Of a DNA stretch of 64,000 nucleotides, positions 412 through 9,526 are shown one piece after another. The translations under genes were made by a program, and so were the position numbers. Below the pieces are notes generated by a model. That model made no database searches, was not told the DNA's origin, and was given only the letters and a program-made list of their open reading frames with translations. Source of the stretch: Sphingobacteriaceae bacterium (GTDB lineage Bacteria; Bacteroidota; Bacteroidia; UBA7662); the NCBI GenBank assembly GCA_013824115.1, contig PNNG01000004.1:1-64000 (forward strand). The letters are read 5' to 3'. Positions within the stretch are counted from its first letter, which is position 1; each line of letters begins with the position of its first letter.

Positions 412-855
412 ATGAATTTAAAGCGTCTTAACTCCGATTTGGTAGACCTCATTGAAATGCGCAATGAGCTCAATGAACTTGACTTTTCTGACGAATCCTA
501 CGATGATTTGGAGGATGAAATCCACGAGTTTGAAGACACCTTCAATGATCGTTACGGCGACATACTCGAAAGTGTTTTAGAGCGCATCCACGAAAACATT
601 TGTCCCGATGTAGAAGTACTGCTTCCCACAGCCTATCTCGCCAAAGAATATTTTGCGAGTGAAGTAGAAGAAGGCAGTTTCGATGTTGGTCCCGATGCTG
701 GCATACTGGTAGAAACCATTCTAAAGGACGCCAAGGGAAAGCCGATAGATGCTCGTATCACATACATTCCCAATCCTTTCCGAATTGTGCTGCTTACCCA
801 AGACGATATACGTACCCTTTGGTCGGCTGAAAATCCAAATGACTTTCTGATATGA
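412..855 (+). CDS. conserved hypothetical acidic protein (147 aa)
   Basis: I do not recognise the family. The protein is soluble, with no signal peptide or membrane segment. Its first half is strongly acidic and looks helical, with repeated Asp/Glu between residues 15 and 60. The C-terminal half is mixed and likely folded, with a DARITYIPNPFRIVLLTQDD stretch near residues 113-132. The ATG at 412 follows a -7 box by 4 nt. The stop overlaps the start of the next gene, an aldehyde dehydrogenase, in an ATGA arrangement, so the two are probably translated together. That coupling is the only functional hint. Confidence 0.8.
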   Translation: MNLKRLNSDLVDLIEMRNELNELDFSDESYDDLEDEIHEFEDTFNDRYGDILESVLERIHENICPDVEVLLPTAYLAKEYFASEVEEGSFDVGPDAGILVETILKDAKGKPIDARITYIPNPFRIVLLTQDDIRTLWSAENPNDFLI

Positions 856-2219
856 GTTTCTTAAGGTCGGTAAATCCTTATACCCTTGAGGAAATAGCTG
901 CCTATCAACCACATACAGCGTCCGAATGGCAGAAAATGGTTTCGGAAGCTGCAGAAACCCAAGTTCAATGGAAAAGACGTTCTCCGCAAGAGCGTCTTTT
1001 TTTTATTCAGCAGTTAAAGGAACTTTTGGTTGAACAAAAAGAGGCACATGCCTCTCTTATAGTACAAGAAATGGGAAAGCTGCAGCGCGAAGCTTTGGCT
1101 GAAATTGAAAAATGTGCGGCACTTTGTGCTTTTTATGAGCGTGAAGGACTTGGTTTTTTGGCCGGATGTGAAATCCCTACCGATGCTTCAACAAGTGGTA
1201 TGTTCTACGAACCGTTGGGTGTGGTGCTTGGAATTATGCCTTGGAATTTCCCATTCTGGCAGGCGTTTCGCTTTTTAGTTCCCGCATTGCTTGCAGGCAA
1301 TACAGTGCTTTTAAAACACGCCAGCAACGTTTCGGGATGTGCTTTGGCCATCGAAAGTCTCTTCCAACAGGCGGGCTTTCCAATGGCTTGTATGCAAACT
1401 TTACTATTGCCCGGTGCCGAAGTGTTGCAGGTTTTGAGCCACCCACAGATATCGGCGGTGAGCATTACCGGCAGCGAAGCTGCTGGTCGACAAGTTGCAT
1501 CCGTGGCTGCTGGCTTGCTTAAACCCGCAGTACTCGAATTGGGTGGTAGCGATCCTTTTATTGTATTTGCCGATGCCAACTTGGAACATGCTGCAGAGGT
1601 GGCGCTTATTTCAAGGTTTCAAAACAGTGGTCAAAGTTGTATCGCTGCCAAGCGTTTTATTGTCCATGAACAGGTGTATGAACCTTTTTTGCACGCGTTA
1701 AAGGAAAAAGTAGCAGCACTTCAAATGGGCGATCCTTTTCTGCACACCACTACTTTGGCCCCTTTGGCAAAACCAGATTTTGTTACAGAGCTGGATGCCC
1801 AAGTACAAGCCAGTATACTGGGGGGAGCGCGATTGGTAACTGGAGGCAAGAAGAGCGAAGCACATTTGGGATTCTACGAACCCACTATTTTAGCGGATGT
1901 TCAACAAGATATGCCAGCAGCATCTGAAGAACTCTTCGGGCCAGTAGCGGCTGTGATGTCTTTTCAAAGCAACGAAGAGGCCATACAGCTGGCCAATAGC
2001 ACCCGATTTGGCTTGGGGAGCACCGTTTTTACCTTTAATGAATATTTAATGAGCCTGTGTAAGAACGAATTGCAAGCAGGAAGCGTTTTTATAAATGGAT
2101 TGATGAAGTCACATCCTGCACTGCCATTTGGCGGAATCAAAGCTTCGGGCTATGGCAGAGAATTAGGCAGGGAAGGTGTTCTGGCATTTTGTCAATCTAA
2201 AACCTATTGGATTAAATAA
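852..2219 (+). CDS. NAD(P)-dependent aldehyde dehydrogenase, succinate-semialdehyde dehydrogenase (Sad/YneI) type
   Basis: This enzyme oxidises an aldehyde, probably succinate semialdehyde, to the acid with NAD(P)+ in the cytoplasm. The aldehyde dehydrogenase landmarks are all present: MPWNFP with Asn132 (oxyanion hole), Lys155 in the cofactor site, Glu229 in LELGGSDPFIV, and the catalytic Cys263 in NSGQSCIAAKRF. The GQSCIAAKR context and the 455-residue length fit the Sad/YneI subgroup better than the longer GabD proteins. The substrate is inferred from that resemblance only. The gene overlaps the acidic protein upstream by 4 bp and is followed 22 bp later by the MbnP-like lipoprotein gene, which has its own possible -7 box. 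Confidence 0.9.
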   Translation: MSFLRSVNPYTLEEIAAYQPHTASEWQKMVSEAAETQVQWKRRSPQERLFFIQQLKELLVEQKEAHASLIVQEMGKLQREALAEIEKCAALCAFYEREGLGFLAGCEIPTDASTSGMFYEPLGVVLGIMPWNFPFWQAFRFLVPALLAGNTVLLKHASNVSGCALAIESLFQQAGFPMACMQTLLLPGAEVLQVLSHPQISAVSITGSEAAGRQVASVAAGLLKPAVLELGGSDPFIVFADANLEHAAEVALISRFQNSGQSCIAAKRFIVHEQVYEPFLHALKEKVAALQMGDPFLHTTTLAPLAKPDFVTELDAQVQASILGGARLVTGGKKSEAHLGFYEPTILADVQQDMPAASEELFGPVAAVMSFQSNEEAIQLANSTRFGLGSTVFTFNEYLMSLCKNELQAGSVFINGLMKSHPALPFGGIKASGYGRELGREGVLAFCQSKTYWIK

Positions 2220-2241: not shown

Positions 2242-3009
2242 ATGAAGAAGATGTACGCATTGTTCATTTTATTGCTTGTGGTTTTGAGTGCTTGCAAAGA
2301 AAAGTCAACTCCCGCGCCAGATCCGGATCCTCAACCCGTTCGCAATGGCGTCTATTTGCGTATGGAACATCTTTTTCAAGGAAGTCCATTAAGCTATGGA
2401 AGTGTTGCATGGCCAACCATCAACAACAATATTGGGGTGAATAACCTTACTTATTATTTGTCTGGCTTTGAGTTTCAAAAACAAGATGGAAGTTGGGAAA
2501 AGGTGGGTGCGTATGCCATGTTTACAGCCCATGAAAAATCTACAGATACAGTGTACTTAGGAACCTTGCCCAATGGTACGTATCAAGCCGTGAGGTTTTT
2601 CTTGGGGGTTGATTCGGTAGCAAACCATGCCGATCCAGCTTTGTGGCCGAATGATCATCCATTGGGGCTCATGCGAGCAGCGCCCATGCATTGGAGCTGG
2701 AATGCCGGGTACATTTTTATGAAATTGGAAGGTCGCTATCGCACGGCTAATCCACTTTTAGATGGTTTCTTTTCATTCCACATCGGTCGCGATGATTTAA
2801 TCACTTCTTACCAGTTGAATGGATTACAAGTGGAGGGTGGGGCAAACAAGCAGTACTTAAAAATGAAGTTCGATGTGGCACCCTTCTTCAATACACCTCA
2901 TGCACATGTATTGTCCGATACTTCGTTTTTCACACACAGTGCTTTCGGCGACCCGATCGCTAATATTCTGCACGGAAATATGGGTAATCTCATTAGCATT
3001 CAGCCATGA
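2242..3009 (+). CDS. MbnP-like lipoprotein
   Basis: This is a predicted lipoprotein: the signal peptide ends in the lipobox LSAC with Cys18, followed by a Pro-rich linker. The mature part resembles the MbnP family, with the motif MHWSWNAGYIFMKLEG (His150, Trp151, Trp153) and a later FSFHIGRDD segment (His180). In methanobactin operons MbnP binds copper, and one of its tryptophans is oxidised to kynurenine by the di-haem enzyme MbnH. Here two MbnH-like peroxidase genes follow at once, the first overlapping by 4 bp, which strengthens the assignment. No methanobactin precursor or biosynthesis genes are nearby, so a general role in periplasmic copper or redox handling is more likely. TAAATTTA at 2230-2237 is a near-consensus -7 box 4 nt before the start. 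Confidence 0.85.
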   Translation: MKKMYALFILLLVVLSACKEKSTPAPDPDPQPVRNGVYLRMEHLFQGSPLSYGSVAWPTINNNIGVNNLTYYLSGFEFQKQDGSWEKVGAYAMFTAHEKSTDTVYLGTLPNGTYQAVRFFLGVDSVANHADPALWPNDHPLGLMRAAPMHWSWNAGYIFMKLEGRYRTANPLLDGFFSFHIGRDDLITSYQLNGLQVEGGANKQYLKMKFDVAPFFNTPHAHVLSDTSFFTHSAFGDPIANILHGNMGNLISIQP

Positions 3010-4103
3010 TGTTTAGCTCAAAATTCACACTAACAGTTCTATCTATTGGGTTTTGGGCAATGGCTTGTAAACCCGATTCGAACAATCCACCAGCTAAAAC
3101 CTATCCGCCTCCTACGCCTTACCAGTGGGTGCAAAAGCCGTTTTTTCCGCCACCCGTTATCAGAAGCGATAATGCCCTAACGGTAGAAGGCATTGAACTG
3201 GGCAGGCACCTGTTCTATGATACCCAACTTAGTGGTGATGGCACTCAATCGTGCGCCAGCTGTCACAATCAGGCCTTGGCTTTTACAGACAATGGCAGAC
3301 GCTTCAGTACAGGAATTACAGGCGCCATCGGGACCAAAAACAGCATGGCCTTATTTAACCTTACTTGGAGCAGCAGATTTTTTTGGGATGGGAGAGTGGC
3401 CACATTGCGTCAGCAAGTACTCCTGCCTATTGAAGACCCCATTGAAATGCACGACAACCTGCCCAATGTGGTGAACAAGCTAAAGAATTCAGCGCTTTAT
3501 CCCGATATGTTTGGTAAGGCTTTCGGCGATGAAGAAATTAATGCTGAACGCATGGCAAAGGCGCTCGAGCAATTTATCTTAAGCATTACTTCCACCGATT
3601 CGAAGTTCGACCGATACCGTATCAATCCGGTTTTAAACCCCTTAACAGCTTCCGAGCAACGGGGTTTCGATTTGTTCATGCGCGAATTCAGTCCTGCAGG
3701 GAGCAATCGACCCAAAGGAGCCGATTGTTTTCACTGTCATGGCACCCATTTGTTTACGGTGAATAATTTCACCAATAATGGCTTGGATGCAAATCCGGCT
3801 ACAGGGTTTCAAATTGTGACAGGCAATCCGCTCGACCGTGGCAAATTCAAAACACCCAGTTTGCGAAACGTAGCACTTACTGCACCCTACATGCACGATG
3901 GCCGGTTCAGCACCCTCGAAGAAGTGATTGACCACTACAATTCTGGACTCCAGGCCAGTCCAACCATCGACATCAACCTCAAATCTACAGGTGTTGGTTT
4001 GGGTTTAACGGCCCAAGACAAGGCCGATTTGTTGGCTTTTCTACATACCCTTTCCGATACCGTTTATACGAACAACCCAGCATACGCCAATCCCTTCAGA
4101 TGA
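3006..4103 (+). CDS. di-haem cytochrome c peroxidase, MbnH/MauG family (first copy)
   Basis: This is an exported c-type cytochrome with two haem sites: CASCH (Cys83, Cys86, His87) and CFHCH (Cys241, Cys244, His245). It has an N-terminal signal with a possible lipidation Cys21. Other family marks are FFWDGR (Trp127), TPSLRN and APYMHDGRF near residue 297. Family members use H2O2 either to oxidise small electron donors or, as in MauG and MbnH, to oxidise Trp on a partner protein. The partner here is probably the MbnP-like protein encoded directly upstream (ATGATG overlap). Trp127 lies in the motif that I believe carries the inter-haem Trp in this family. The stop overlaps the next peroxidase gene by 4 bp. 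Confidence 0.92.
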   Translation: MMFSSKFTLTVLSIGFWAMACKPDSNNPPAKTYPPPTPYQWVQKPFFPPPVIRSDNALTVEGIELGRHLFYDTQLSGDGTQSCASCHNQALAFTDNGRRFSTGITGAIGTKNSMALFNLTWSSRFFWDGRVATLRQQVLLPIEDPIEMHDNLPNVVNKLKNSALYPDMFGKAFGDEEINAERMAKALEQFILSITSTDSKFDRYRINPVLNPLTASEQRGFDLFMREFSPAGSNRPKGADCFHCHGTHLFTVNNFTNNGLDANPATGFQIVTGNPLDRGKFKTPSLRNVALTAPYMHDGRFSTLEEVIDHYNSGLQASPTIDINLKSTGVGLGLTAQDKADLLAFLHTLSDTVYTNNPAYANPFR

Positions 4104-5128
4104 AGCTCTGGGGGCTTTGGGCAATTTTGGTTTGGCTGATAGCGGGATGTAGCGCAGGCGGAGAAAAACAGCCCTTTGAACTGTCGGGTGTACCAGCAGC
4201 ATTTCCGCTGCCCGATAGCATACGTTTCATGACCGAAGAGGCCAAAGCCCGGGCTTTATTGGGGCGTACCTTGTTTTATGATCCAGCCCTTTCGGCAAGC
4301 GGCCGATTCAGTTGTGCCAGTTGCCATGTGCCTTCGTTGGCTTTTGCTGGGGGAATGGATCGTAATGTGGGCGAAAACAGCGGACGAGGACGGAGAAATA
4401 CACCTGCTCTTTTCAATTTGTGGTGGCAGTCACATTTTTTTGCCGATGGAGGCATTCCAAGGCTATCAGAGGTGACTTTGGCACCCATGGACAATGCACA
4501 CGAGCTCAATTTGCCCATCGATACTTTGGTGAGAAAGCTGCGTCGCATACCCGCCTACCAGCAAGCTTTTCAATCGGTTTTCCAACGAGAGCCCGATCCG
4601 TTTGGGGTAACGCGGGCTTTGATGTGGTTCCAACTGAGCCTGATATCAGCCAATAGTCCGTTTGACCGCTGGTACTATGAGAAAGACCAGATGGCCCTTT
4701 CGGCATCCGCAAAAAGAGGATATGCACTTTTTATAAGCGAAAGAACCAACTGCAGCAGCTGTCATGGCCCGCCTTTTTTTACGGATGGTCTATTTTACAG
4801 CATTGGCCATGAAAATCTCAACGAACCCGATACCGGCAGGGCCCGCATCAGTATGTCGGTACAAGATGTGGGCAAATTCAAAACCCCTTCTTTACGCAAT
4901 TTGGCTTTTAGTGGACCTTATATGCACGATGGTGGATTGCAAAGCTTGGAAGAAGTATTGGCCTATTACAACAGGGGGGGGGATATACATCCAAACAAGG
5001 ATGCACGCATTAAGGTTTTGGGATTAAAAGAGGCAGAACTTTCGGATCTGAAAAATTTCCTTTTAAGCTTGTCCGATACTTCGTTTACAAAACATCCTGC
5101 TTATCGGCCCCTCGGCTACCGGGATTAA
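4100..5128 (+). CDS. di-haem cytochrome c peroxidase, MbnH/MauG family (second copy)
   Basis: This is a paralogue of the preceding gene, coupled to it by a 4-bp overlap. It has a lipoprotein signal (IAGC, Cys17) and two haem motifs, CASCH (Cys72, Cys75, His76) and CSSCH (Cys218, Cys221, His222). The TPSLRN and GPYMHDGG segments are conserved, so the fold should be intact. Where the first copy has FFWDGR, this one reads FFADGG (Ala115), so the Trp of that motif is missing. The two enzymes may therefore differ in how the haems communicate or in substrate. The 3' end overlaps the convergent MMPL transporter gene by 44 bp. Confidence 0.9.
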   Translation: MKLWGLWAILVWLIAGCSAGGEKQPFELSGVPAAFPLPDSIRFMTEEAKARALLGRTLFYDPALSASGRFSCASCHVPSLAFAGGMDRNVGENSGRGRRNTPALFNLWWQSHFFADGGIPRLSEVTLAPMDNAHELNLPIDTLVRKLRRIPAYQQAFQSVFQREPDPFGVTRALMWFQLSLISANSPFDRWYYEKDQMALSASAKRGYALFISERTNCSSCHGPPFFTDGLFYSIGHENLNEPDTGRARISMSVQDVGKFKTPSLRNLAFSGPYMHDGGLQSLEEVLAYYNRGGDIHPNKDARIKVLGLKEAELSDLKNFLLSLSDTSFTKHPAYRPLGYRD

Positions 5129-7364
5129 TCCAGTATATGAGTTGGGGAATTAAAAATATGTCGGAAAACCAAGCACTGATGAGCGTGATACAAATGAGTA
5201 TGCCTACATAATAAGTGCCTGTAAACGAGCTGAAAATCAAACTAACAAATCCCACTACCAACAAAATGGTGGTGATGGTGATGGCTTTTACGCTCACCAA
5301 AAAGGTTTGTTTTAAGGCAGTTTCAACGCCGTCGCCCCGCTGACGTTGCAATTTATACCTTGTAAGGAAATGAATAGTATCGTCGACGGCAATGCCAAAC
5401 GACACTGTAAAGATGACGGAAGTAACCGCTTTCAGTTCAATACCTGTGAAAGCCAATGTAGCACCAGCTACGAGCATCGGAATGATGTTAGGAATGATGC
5501 TCACCAACACCATTCGCCAATCGCGAAACAACCAGCCGAATATCAATGCCACCAAAATAAAGGCGAAGCCCAAACTATAGAACAAGTTCTTCCGCAAGTA
5601 TTCGTGGTTTTTGTCAACCAAAAGAACGGATCCGGTGGGACGGAATTGAACCACATCCCGCCGAATGTTTTCACTGATCCAGCTTTTGATAGCATCAATT
5701 TGCACGGTGAGGCTGTCGGAGCCTGAATCACGAATGCGTCCACTGATGCGGCCGAAATCAGCCTCTCGATTCCAAAGTTTATAAAAGAGCCGATTTTCAG
5801 CTTTACGCAGCTGTTTTTCTAAACTAGCCAAGTCTACCTCTTCATTCTCAATAGCTTTTGAAAAAGAAAGGTCTGGTTTTTCGGCTTGATACAGCCGTTG
5901 CATCAATCCAGCAGGACTATACAAACTCTGTATACCATGTTCCTTTTCTAAATAATCCAGCAGTTTAAGGCTTTCGGTAATTACGGCAGCGTCGAACATG
6001 CCATTATTTGCTTGGGGCTCGATGGCTATTTCGAAGGGACGAACACCCGAAAATGACCTTTCGAAGAATTTGAAATCATCGCGCAATCTGCTTCTTTCAG
6101 GGATATCGCCCAGAAGATAGCTGTTTGTAGAAATGAAAGGCAAGCTGGCCAAACAAATAGCAATTACCACTACAATGGTTAGGGTAATTCGTTTGGGGTG
6201 GTTTTTATTCGCATTAAAAAGCCATAGGTTAAAGGCATCCCACCTCAAACTTCCTTGCCGGCTTTTTTGGAGTTGAGACGCATTAAAGTACGACAAACAG
6301 GCCCCTCCAAACAGCACTACAACCACAAAAGCAATGAGTACTCCCACCGCAGCGTTGATTCCGAATTGACGAATGGCTGGGGTGGACGATAGGAGCAAAG
6401 AGGCAAAGCCAATGGCGGTAGTGAGGGAGGTAAGCCAAAGTGCCAAGCCAATTTCTTTAATGCTCAGCAGCATAGCTTCTTTGCGGCTCGATCCGTTGTG
6501 CAGCCCATCGAGGTATTTCGATTGGAGGTGGATGATGTCGGACATACCAAAAATGAGCATCAGGGTGGGGAACATGGTACTCATGATGTTGAAATCTTGC
6601 CTAGTCACCCCTAAATACCCCATAAAAACCACGAGTGCCAATACCACTGTAAGGAGTGGTATGAGTACGCCCCAAAGTGTACGATAAAGGAGCCAAAGCA
6701 CGATGGTAACCAACACCACCGAAAGGCTGATAAAAAGCAATAATTCGGTTTGTATTTTTTGAACAAATACAGTTTGAGTGGTGATTACTCCACCAAAGTG
6801 GGCTTTTTCGCTTAAACCGAAAGCACCAACCAAACTATCGATAGCTGCTTGAAAGGCATTGGCTTCTTTCTGATTGAGCCGGTACTTGGTTTTTACAGAA
6901 ACAGCCAGGGCACGGTGGTCGTTCGCCACAAAGTGCCGCATTACATCTGCATTTGCACTGATGGCAGCACTGTCTAAGCCGTAATTTTTAGCCTTATCTA
7001 TACGAATGAGGGGCTTGAAGCTCCATCCAAATGGGGTTTTAATGGGTTGTCGAAAAGTGGTTAAACCCTCTGCAATGGCAACTTGAGGGTGTTTCTTTAG
7101 CGCTAGCGTAAATTGATGCGCCCTCTCCAAAAACGATTCATCGTAAATACTCGGGCTATTTTCGAAGGCCACCAGTACAAAGAGGTCATCTCGTTCGAGC
7201 TTATCTTGAAATTGATGTAAGTAATTGAGGTCTTCGTCGTCGGCTGGAAAAAACTGCTCCAAGTCGTAAACAAAGCCAATGTGTTTGGCCTGCCAAGCAG
7301 AAGTAGCTCCTAAAAGGACGAACAAGAAAATCCACCTCAGGCGGTGGTCAAAAATGCTTTTCAC
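5085..7364 (-). CDS. RND superfamily exporter, MMPL/HpnN type
   Basis: This is a 759-residue inner-membrane transporter of the RND superfamily, probably driven by the proton gradient. It has the duplicated layout of that family. There is one membrane helix near the N-terminus, then a large periplasmic domain, then five hydrophobic helices around residues 205-350. This plan repeats with a second periplasmic domain (about 410-600) and helices from about 600 to 745. MMPL-type proteins move lipids or other hydrophobic compounds; the substrate here is unknown. The gene is 32 bp downstream of the LiaF-like gene and probably belongs to that envelope-stress operon. Its 3' end overlaps the convergent peroxidase gene. 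Confidence 0.88.
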   Translation of the reverse strand: MKSIFDHRLRWIFLFVLLGATSAWQAKHIGFVYDLEQFFPADDEDLNYLHQFQDKLERDDLFVLVAFENSPSIYDESFLERAHQFTLALKKHPQVAIAEGLTTFRQPIKTPFGWSFKPLIRIDKAKNYGLDSAAISANADVMRHFVANDHRALAVSVKTKYRLNQKEANAFQAAIDSLVGAFGLSEKAHFGGVITTQTVFVQKIQTELLLFISLSVVLVTIVLWLLYRTLWGVLIPLLTVVLALVVFMGYLGVTRQDFNIMSTMFPTLMLIFGMSDIIHLQSKYLDGLHNGSSRKEAMLLSIKEIGLALWLTSLTTAIGFASLLLSSTPAIRQFGINAAVGVLIAFVVVVLFGGACLSYFNASQLQKSRQGSLRWDAFNLWLFNANKNHPKRITLTIVVVIAICLASLPFISTNSYLLGDIPERSRLRDDFKFFERSFSGVRPFEIAIEPQANNGMFDAAVITESLKLLDYLEKEHGIQSLYSPAGLMQRLYQAEKPDLSFSKAIENEEVDLASLEKQLRKAENRLFYKLWNREADFGRISGRIRDSGSDSLTVQIDAIKSWISENIRRDVVQFRPTGSVLLVDKNHEYLRKNLFYSLGFAFILVALIFGWLFRDWRMVLVSIIPNIIPMLVAGATLAFTGIELKAVTSVIFTVSFGIAVDDTIHFLTRYKLQRQRGDGVETALKQTFLVSVKAITITTILLVVGFVSLIFSSFTGTYYVGILICITLISAWFSDIFLIPQLIYWINPGSRGADKQDVL

Positions 7365-7396: not shown

Positions 7397-8356
7397 TCAA
7401 TATGTTTTTACTTCAATAGAGGCAACTCCTGCTGAAATTTTGATTTTATAGAGGTCTTTTGCGCTATCGTTATAGACGCTGGTGGTATACGTACCGTCTT
7501 TTTGTTTGCTTAGTCCTTCAATGGTGGTTCCAGTTAGGCCAGTTTCAGTGGTTAAGCGTACAGCAGCATTTGCAGGTACCAAAACAACTAGCTGTGAAGC
7601 CCCTGTCTCAATATCTATTTGCGATTTCCCTATGGGTTGTCCAAGCTTGACATCCATTTTGCTTGCTCCTCCTTTGAGTGCTAGCGACTCAATTTTATAG
7701 TTGCTCAAATCGAGTTGACAATCAGAAGCACCCGTTTCGATATCGAGTTTCCAAAACACCGATTCATTGAGCGTTACATTTACCGTATTCTCGAATTCGC
7801 CCTTTTTAAACTTCATTTTTTTGCTTTGATGTGAAAGGGAGATCTCGGCCGATTTTCCATTGACCTGTTGCTCAAAGGCATAGGTGCCAAAATTGGTAGC
7901 TGCATTGGCCGCTACCAGGCCTGCCGTAACTCCTCCCATACTTAGTGTACCAGCTCCAAAATCGATATTAAGCGATGCTTTTTCTACTTCTTCTAAAGGT
8001 ACTTCAAAGTCGTGCTGGCGCATGGCCCCGTTGCTGCTTTCGCCTTCCACAGCCCCTTCCTCTTCATTGTCGAAATACCATTCGAGTCCCTCGTGCGGAT
8101 TACGCTCTTTTTCTTTGGGCTTAACGATAAAGTATACCAGAATCGCTAGAATCACTATTTGTACTACATACAAAACCGGATTGGTGGCGCCATCTTTTTG
8201 CTTTAACAAGGCTGAGAATCCCCAATAAATGAGAAAAAGAGGCCACAAACGCCATAGATTGCCAAATTGGAAACTCAGGTAGCCTAAGTTTTGGAGTAAG
8301 AACAGGCCGCCGAAAATGATCAGCAATAAGCCCCAAAAAACACGATCTGATTTCAT
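7397..8356 (-). CDS. LiaF-like membrane protein with C-terminal beta-helical (toast-rack) domain
   Basis: The first about 85 residues form a LiaI/LiaF-type membrane module of three to four short hydrophobic helices (starting VFWGLLLIIFGGLFLLQNLG). After a charged linker (about 85-115) comes a beta-rich domain with repeated IETGAS and LKGGAS turns up to the C-terminus, like the toast-rack/DUF2154-type domain of LiaF and YvqF proteins. These sense or modulate cell-envelope stress together with PspC. That fits the neighbour: the PspC gene lies 1 bp upstream in the same operon. The role is inferred from the families; the domain layout is read from the sequence. Confidence 0.82.
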   Translation of the reverse strand: MKSDRVFWGLLLIIFGGLFLLQNLGYLSFQFGNLWRLWPLFLIYWGFSALLKQKDGATNPVLYVVQIVILAILVYFIVKPKEKERNPHEGLEWYFDNEEEGAVEGESSNGAMRQHDFEVPLEEVEKASLNIDFGAGTLSMGGVTAGLVAANAATNFGTYAFEQQVNGKSAEISLSHQSKKMKFKKGEFENTVNVTLNESVFWKLDIETGASDCQLDLSNYKIESLALKGGASKMDVKLGQPIGKSQIDIETGASQLVVLVPANAAVRLTTETGLTGTTIEGLSKQKDGTYTTSVYNDSAKDLYKIKISAGVASIEVKTY

Positions 8357-8357
8357 T

Positions 8358-8795
8358 TTACTTCGATTTTGACTTGCTATTCACCAATAATAAAACGCCT
8401 ATGCCAATCAGTAAAAGTGGCCAAAACTTACTGAAATCAAAGGCCGGCAAAAACTCTTCTGCCAAAAACAAGGCCCCTAACAAGATAAGTACGCCACCAG
8501 CAATGATGCTTCCTTTGCCCGCGTCGGTATTACTTCCTGTATTCACGGTGTTTTGATCAGCACTTTCAGCCGTAGTGCTTTGAGCAGCATCGCCAAAATT
8601 CTGAAATTGATAAGGCTCCTCGGGTACAATGGCCCACATGATAATATAGGCAAGTACTCCACCGCCACCCGCCAGCGCCAAGGCAATGAAGAGTACGCGA
8701 ATGAGAACCGGATCGGTGTTGAAGTGCCGCGCTAGTCCGCTGGCTACACCTGCCAAAACGCGATCATTTCGGAGGCGAAAGAGTTTTTTTTCCAT
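8358..8795 (-). CDS. PspC domain envelope-stress protein
   Basis: This is a small membrane protein of 145 residues. The N-terminal PspC domain (about 1-60) has the typical LFRLRNDRVLAGVASGLARHF segment in two pieces and a membrane helix near 33-57. After a polar Thr/Ser/Asn-rich linker come two more helices (about 92-140, with ILLGALFLAEEFLP and WPLLLIGIGVLLL), like the DUF5668 module. PspC proteins take part in responses to membrane damage. This is the first gene of a three-gene set with the LiaF-like protein and the MMPL exporter. A weak promoter, TATTTTCC, lies on the minus strand near 8838. Confidence 0.88.
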   Translation of the reverse strand: MEKKLFRLRNDRVLAGVASGLARHFNTDPVLIRVLFIALALAGGGGVLAYIIMWAIVPEEPYQFQNFGDAAQSTTAESADQNTVNTGSNTDAGKGSIIAGGVLILLGALFLAEEFLPAFDFSKFWPLLLIGIGVLLLVNSKSKSK

Positions 8796-8860
8796 GGGTT
8801 TTTAGGATTTCAGGATAAACATCGGGAAAATACGCATACTTCCAAGCGAGTTTGCAATCG

Positions 8861-9526
8861 TTAACGCAACAGACCGGGTGGAATGTGCTCTATGCCTTCT
8901 TTGCTCAATACCACCACTTGCTCCCAAAAGGGTAAAGATGGCAAATCGGCCTTTCCCGTAAATAAACCAAACGCAGGCATTACCGCAGTTTTGGCCGAAA
9001 ACGCGAAACAGGCCAAACGCATCCGCTGTCGACCCTTGCCGCGCAATTGAATGGCCGGGTGCCAATGCCCGTGCACAGTAGGTTCATTTACTTCCTGTTC
9101 GGGGGGATGGTGCTGAAAAATAATGCCCCCCATATGAAACTGTTCGGGCGTTATGGTAAACAAACCCCCTTGGGCCGTTAAACTATAACGGTCGTGATTG
9201 CCGGGCACTACCAAAATCTCGAGGCTGGGATGGATAGTCCTGAGCTCTTGCAGCAAACCCAATTCTGAATTGACATCGCTGTGGAATAAATCGCCTAAAA
9301 AAAGCAATTTTTTGGGTTCGTATTTGGCCAATACCCATTGCAGTTTGCCCAAATTGGCACGAGCTGCTGCCAAGGGAATAGCAATGCCATGCTTTCTGAA
9401 ATGTTGCACCTTGCCCACATGGAAGTCGGAAATGATAAGTGTCTCAAATTCAGGAATAAAACATGATCCACTGGCATCTAAAATCCAAGTAATCCCGCTC
9501 CAGGATAGCGCTAATTTGGCTTGCAT
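8861..9526 (-). CDS. pdeM: ligase-associated DNA damage response endonuclease PdeM
   Basis: This is a calcineurin-like metallophosphoesterase. The metal-binding motifs appear in order: SDFHVGK (about residue 33), GDLFHSD (about 77), GNHDRY (about 108) and HGHWHP (about 152). PdeM proteins are usually encoded beside an Lhr-type helicase, an ATP-dependent DNA ligase and a second nuclease, and are thought to act in DNA repair. The Lhr-type helicase gene is 20 bp upstream in the same direction. The ligase and exonuclease partners are not in this window. The ATG start at 9526 gives a full-length family member. Confidence 0.87.
   Translation of the reverse strand: MQAKLALSWSGITWILDASGSCFIPEFETLIISDFHVGKVQHFRKHGIAIPLAAARANLGKLQWVLAKYEPKKLLFLGDLFHSDVNSELGLLQELRTIHPSLEILVVPGNHDRYSLTAQGGLFTITPEQFHMGGIIFQHHPPEQEVNEPTVHGHWHPAIQLRGKGRQRMRLACFAFSAKTAVMPAFGLFTGKADLPSLPFWEQVVVLSKEGIEHIPPGLLR

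Follow-up and report, generated by a model that had tools for sequence, protein, structure and literature searches.

Why should the gene of an MbnP-family lipoprotein be followed by two di-haem peroxidase genes, when the described MbnP/MbnH pairs have only one, as an earlier note on this DNA rightly held? The locus lies in a window of 64,000 nucleotides, by which we mean the whole stretch analysed (contig PNNG01000004.1 of Sphingobacteriaceae bacterium, assembly GCA_013824115.1). In M. trichosporium, MbnH reportedly converts the first Trp of the WxW motif of MbnP to kynurenine, and Cu(I) is said to be held there by Met, His and solvent, with the kynurenine near by. The explanation that we favour, at a probability of roughly 0.5, is that the triad is a maturation operon, in which gene 2 would make kynurenine from Trp151 and gene 3 would be an accessory of the same maturation.

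The operon and its MbnP lipoprotein

The triad comprises three plus-strand open reading frames (2242-5128; 255, 365 and 342 aa) and stands in the following context:

412..855, + strand: acidic protein of 147 aa, lying ahead of the triad (families f1 and f2)
852..2219, + strand: aldehyde dehydrogenase (PF00171, 428 bits), ending 22 bp upstream of the triad
2242..3009, + strand: gene 1, MbnP-family lipoprotein (PF20243, 121 bits against a gathering cut-off of 27; AF2 model with pLDDT 92; fold match to 7L6G; motif conservation), with lipobox LSAC at 2284-2295, MHWSW at 2686-2700, conserved His180 at 2779-2781 and conserved His232 at 2935-2937
2692..2694, + strand: Trp151, first Trp of WxW and expected kynurenine, from alignment to MAWNW of 7L6G
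3006..4103, + strand: gene 2, canonical MbnH/MauG-type di-haem enzyme (PF03150, 187 bits; best PDB match 6E1C; motif columns), with lipobox AMAC, CASCH at 3252-3266, bridging Trp127 at 3384-3386, Gln137, Glu147, CFHCH at 3726-3740 and axial Tyr311 at 3936-3938
4100..5128, + strand: gene 3, MbnH-like di-haem enzyme of the second type, lacking the inter-haem Trp (PF03150, 156 bits; fold; motif columns; trees), with lipobox IAGC, CASCH at 4313-4327, Ala115 replacing Trp at 4442-4444, Val125 replacing Gln, Glu135, CSSCH at 4751-4765 and axial Tyr290 at 4967-4969

Most of what the earlier note had read from the letters was borne out. Both junctions are 4-bp ATGA overlaps, gene 1 stays inside the MbnP family in a profile search, and genes 2 and 3, taken for two MauG/MbnH-like enzymes of one transcription unit, both match CCP_MauG. 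Export signals had been read on all three proteins, but the grading into two clear lipoboxes and one possible lipidation cysteine needs amending, a plausible lipobox being present on all three proteins (C18, C21 and C17). The reported lack of a methanobactin gene agrees with the immediate neighbours of the triad, namely the aldehyde dehydrogenase on the upstream side and, on the opposite strand, an MMPL-type transporter.

The aldehyde dehydrogenase occupies the same place in L039, L040, L044, L061, L066 and L069 and probably belongs to the same operon in this genus. As for the 147-aa protein, no Pfam, NCBIfam or PHROG model matched it; 17 homologues adjoin the triad, or an MbnP at a contig edge, and in f1 and f2 its gene stands near the triad with or without the aldehyde dehydrogenase between them. 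With the triad, these two genes make up a five-gene order that is conserved in the genus, in G005 and in f2. Outside f1/f2, the partly identified neighbours of two-peroxidase loci reveal no third conserved partner gene. Nor did copper hints emerge from the genes sampled at other MbnP loci, which were mostly unrelated housekeeping genes; what gene sizes had led us to guess was an import cluster in Flavobacteriales turned out to encode a helicase, a WYL regulator and acyl-CoA enzymes.

A profile of MbnP relatives found a single PDB chain, 7L6G, and aligned M149-H-W151-S-W153 of the window protein to its M-A-W-N-W. Chains of 7L6G were also the only significant fold match of the AF2 model (E 1.8e-8, probability 1.0, TM about 0.53). 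The score of 48.3 against the equivalog model TIGR04052 lies under the curated cut-off of 140, so the window protein is a distant member of the MbnP family and not an equivalog. It has the Met that precedes WxW and the conserved His (M149, W151, W153, H180), and Trp is found at position 151 in 108/111 relatives and at position 153 in 93/111. Homology points to Trp151 as the kynurenine site.

It had also been suggested that Trp151 and Trp153 are the targets of two successive oxidations. This idea did not survive the comparison with MbnPs that stand beside one Trp-bearing peroxidase, where Trp151 is kept in 95/95 and Trp153 in 82/95: since conservation of WxW is no lower where MbnP has a single peroxidase, there is no ground for taking Trp153 as a second target. 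Neither WxW nor HWxW can serve as a hallmark of two-peroxidase loci, both being common in single-peroxidase loci as well, and the comparison with single-peroxidase MbnPs yielded no residue exclusive to two-peroxidase loci. The columns that do differ between the two sets (His139, Asp131, Pro132, His232) may reflect relatedness only.

Two variants of MbnP deserve a comment of their own. Two-peroxidase MbnPs of other families (L119, L121, L132, L135, L169) carry C-terminal extensions, and those that were aligned lack the lipobox Cys; the extension of L169, the only one scanned, is a T9SS sorting tail. Apparently, these are the same protein with another route to the surface. In addition, several single-peroxidase MbnPs (L045, L107, L108, L112, L116, L120, L125, L133, L136) have M(A/V/F/Q)WP in place of WxW and pair with peroxidases of the FLWN/YNWN type, which are devoid of the conserved Glu column, a combination that possibly represents a third variant.

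Two lineages of peroxidase beside MbnP

Gene 2 is closest to the MbnH entry 6E1C (1.2e-56), and its Trp, Glu and Tyr line up with those of that entry. Its inter-haem Trp127, in FFWDG, is the equivalent of MauG Trp93; it retains Gln137 and Glu147, and its second haem motif is of the CxHCH form, resembling CHHCH of 6E1C. In gene 3, Ala115 occupies the Trp column and Val the Gln column, and the second haem has CSSCH; both haem motifs, Glu135 and Tyr290 are retained. The lineage of gene 3 has lost CxHCH together with the Trp. For both enzymes, which contain two CXXCH motifs each, the best NCBIfam model is "MbnH family di-heme enzyme", and both score below the cut-off of the equivalog TIGR04039 (258.8 and 222.5 against 362.85). 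The AF2 model of gene 3 (pLDDT 90) has MbnH 6E1C as its nearest fold (TM 0.81); with Ala115 replacing the inter-haem Trp, we file gene 3 as MbnH-like by fold and not as MbnH.

The electron-transfer haem of bCcPs takes its sixth ligand from a Met that follows the His of PYxHxG by 14 residues, a spacing that we confirmed in register on the alignment. At this Met275 column, both enzymes have Tyr (Y311, Y290), as do MauG and MbnH, and in the same alignment neither shows a distal His at the His71 column. Their identity as classical bCcPs was rejected on these two counts.

How general is the pairing? MbnP was found in 59/80 relatives, and the neighbourhoods of most MbnP matches were read. Among genomes of the window's family with a long enough contig, all 13 of 13 have the order MbnP-peroxidase-peroxidase; in f2, the triad is present in 2/3 genomes, the third locus being incomplete. 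Seven further families (G021, G028, G032, G057, G060, G070, G072) have the triad as adjacent genes, and in G029 and G073 MbnP or another gene is interposed in the two-peroxidase locus. A profile scan of named genomes, whose frequencies are biased by its seeding with two-peroxidase MbnPs, added Saprospiraceae, Chitinophagales, Flavobacteriales, Cryomorphaceae, Vicingaceae and Ignavibacteriota. The genome survey that the earlier note had proposed thus finds the three-gene order in relatives and more widely in Bacteroidota and Ignavibacteriota, and such conservation in relatives means that the arrangement is not a chance one. Acidiluteibacter ferrifornacis (L205) is an example of a cultured relative that has the triad.

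In total, 46 two-peroxidase loci were read. Exactly one of the two enzymes bears the Trp in 40/45 complete loci (41/46 with the incomplete L184 counted), although the loci share ancestry and these counts are not of independent events. Three of the exceptions come from closely related members of the window's family, in which the second enzyme has LMWD and an Asp at the Glu column; the remaining two are L159 and L177. The Trp is replaced by Arg in 22/40 and by Lys in 3/40 loci, and otherwise by Phe, Ala, Met or Val. Gene order within the pair is free, the Trp-less enzyme being second in the window and first in L119, L132, L135 and Saprospiraceae. In single-peroxidase loci, the Trp is present in 83/91, and a Trp-less enzyme stands alone in 8/91, which shows no strict need for a partner in the same operon. 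MbnPs that adjoin a Trp-less enzyme alone keep WxW in 13/15 cases, and this favours MbnP as the substrate of the Trp-less type. Two of three genomes checked with such MbnPs (G065, G024) encode elsewhere, away from any MbnP, an FFWD enzyme that shares 51-57% identity with canonical ones; as FFWD enzymes are common, these separate copies are suggestive only.

In two Ignavibacteriota loci (L170:5995-9793 and L200:1701-5522), the order is MbnP-peroxidase-MbnP-peroxidase, with an MbnP of its own beside each of the two enzymes, of which one has the Trp and the other lacks it. Such loci could help to assign each enzyme to the MbnP that it serves.

The lineage trees, which are quick ones with long branches, place most Trp-less enzymes (among 107) in a set of 22 with 98% SH-aLRT support, apart from the canonical set; a few fast Trp-less rows fall outside it. 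In a second tree (n=74), holding all second-type enzymes together gave a topology as likely as the free one (AU p 0.524) and even slightly better. The free tree is without a single second-type clade because fast f1/f2 rows drift. Overall, genes 2 and 3 are old paralogues, second-type enzymes being compatible with one clade, and a recent tandem duplication of one peroxidase is ruled out by their placement in different lineages. Hence, the description of two MbnH-like peroxidases stands, but they are not the equivalent copies that it implied: they are unequal members of two old lineages, which escaped a reading of the sequence.

The Trp-less single enzymes L009 and L075 are nested among Trp-bearing ones in the tree of 107. 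L009 is a second MbnP locus of the genome studied here (G000:C3, 6409-10403) and contains:

6409-7164: MbnP with WxW lost (LWA)
7639-8451: MbnP with FWSW
8461-9489: peroxidase with FNADGG, inter-haem Trp missing

The locus also encodes a protein that starts with a CDMCGC motif and, on the other strand, a TonB receptor and a DUF5074 protein. Judging from its nested position, the L009 peroxidase apparently lost its Trp independently.

What the second peroxidase may do

The scenario that we prefer, maturation of one MbnP by both enzymes, would run as follows. The MbnP lipoprotein would be exported and lipidated. Gene 2, with its Trp relay and Tyr-ligated second haem, would use H2O2 to act on Trp151 at long range, producing kynurenine, and Kyn151 would complete a copper site together with Met149 and the conserved His. 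Gene 3, which keeps both haems, Tyr and Glu and has its inter-haem hole path cut, would be a dedicated accessory. It would most likely act on the same MbnP, either at a different step or as a hetero-oligomer partner of gene 2. The unequal peroxidase pair beside MbnP suggests a division of labour. That the old pair of a Trp-wired and a Trp-less enzyme performs different steps or forms one hetero-oligomer, in either case building an oxidised-Trp copper site, is a proposal to which we give slightly less than even odds.

Of the two forms that this cooperation might take, two steps on MbnP is a tentative idea that we consider less likely than not. Gene 3 would perform a local, short-range oxidation or oxygenation, such as the first oxygen insertion, and gene 2 would complete the kynurenine remotely. 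There is a precedent in MauG, which acts on a substrate Trp that is already hydroxylated (PMC7876137), and BthA, naturally free of the inter-haem Trp, still forms a stable bis-Fe(IV) state with H2O2 (PMC6405878). The gene 3 lineage keeps Glu and both haems, and nearly always the Tyr, and the persistence of WxW beside solitary Trp-less enzymes points the same way. However, MbnH alone is said to be enough for kynurenine in the described system, and no residue was found to be peculiar to the MbnPs of two-peroxidase loci.

Alternatively, the role of gene 3 might be mostly structural or one of electron relay, as a subunit bound to gene 2 and MbnP, with the pair replacing the homodimer of classical bCcPs. 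One-plus-one pairing of the lineages in whichever gene order, the overlap of the genes and the faster evolution of gene 3 all suit this reading, which we nevertheless consider rather unlikely, since the catalytic Glu and the haem ligands are retained in gene 3 and Trp-less enzymes also stand alone.

It is less probable still that gene 3 modifies a second substrate elsewhere or consumes H2O2 to protect the site. Its divergence from gene 2 and the loss of the hopping Trp would fit another job, but it has neither the distal His nor the Met ligand of classical bCcPs, it adjoins MbnP, and the partly identified neighbours outside f1/f2 offer no third conserved partner. Another substrate for gene 3 is, in our opinion, less likely than shared MbnP maturation.

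The absence of the Gln used by MauG and bCcP counts against the maturation scenario, as gene 3 might be inactive. That gene 3 is a decaying duplicate of little function is very improbable: Trp and Gln are lost and dN/dS is about twofold above that of gene 2 (about 0.10-0.28 for the gene 3 type, 0.06-0.12 for gene 2), but these values are well below 1, the gene is kept in every resolvable genome of the family, and its lineage is old. Gene 3 is under purifying selection, with weaker constraint than gene 2, and haem motifs and axial Tyr are nearly invariant among second-type enzymes.

Known relatives and wider meaning

The nearest known system is the MbnP/MbnH pair of M. trichosporium OB3b (7L6G, 6E1C; TIGR04052/TIGR04039, GenProp0940), which shares with our locus the MbnP fold, M-x-W-x-W, adjacent genes and an MbnH-type enzyme that has both the Tyr ligand and the inter-haem Trp. 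The window differs in its extra enzyme of the Trp-less lineage, in lipoprotein anchors on all three proteins, in an operon without methanobactin genes and in equivalog scores below cut-off. Such pairs are distributed much more widely than methanobactin production (PMC3621798). CorA/CorB and MopE/SACCP of methanotrophs likewise couple a copper protein carrying a Trp-derived kynurenine with a co-transcribed di-haem peroxidase (PMC3912023), but have one peroxidase and substrates not markedly similar to MbnP (PMC3621798). MauG of methylamine utilisation resembles gene 2 in fold, Tyr axial ligand and Trp relay; its substrate is another, and the NCBIfam MauG score is far under cut-off. Gene 3 recalls Burkholderia BthA, in which the inter-haem Trp is naturally replaced by Ser257; BthA is larger, its sequence relation is weaker than that to MbnH, and the paper describing it does not mention MbnP or copper (PMC6405878).

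In the literature searched, we found neither experiments on any Bacteroidota member nor a description of two-peroxidase MbnP loci. The MbnP/MbnH kind is already known; what is distinctive here is the conserved unequal peroxidase pair beside MbnP.

Finally, there is still debate about the role of the inter-haem Trp in long-range catalysis of the MauG type. The loci described here provide dozens of natural matched pairs, with and without the relay, which stand beside members of one substrate family. Should both enzymes of the pair act on one substrate, they would allow a direct test of the role of the relay and of the route from Trp to kynurenine, and kynurenine copper sites would extend from methanotrophs to common environmental Bacteroidota.
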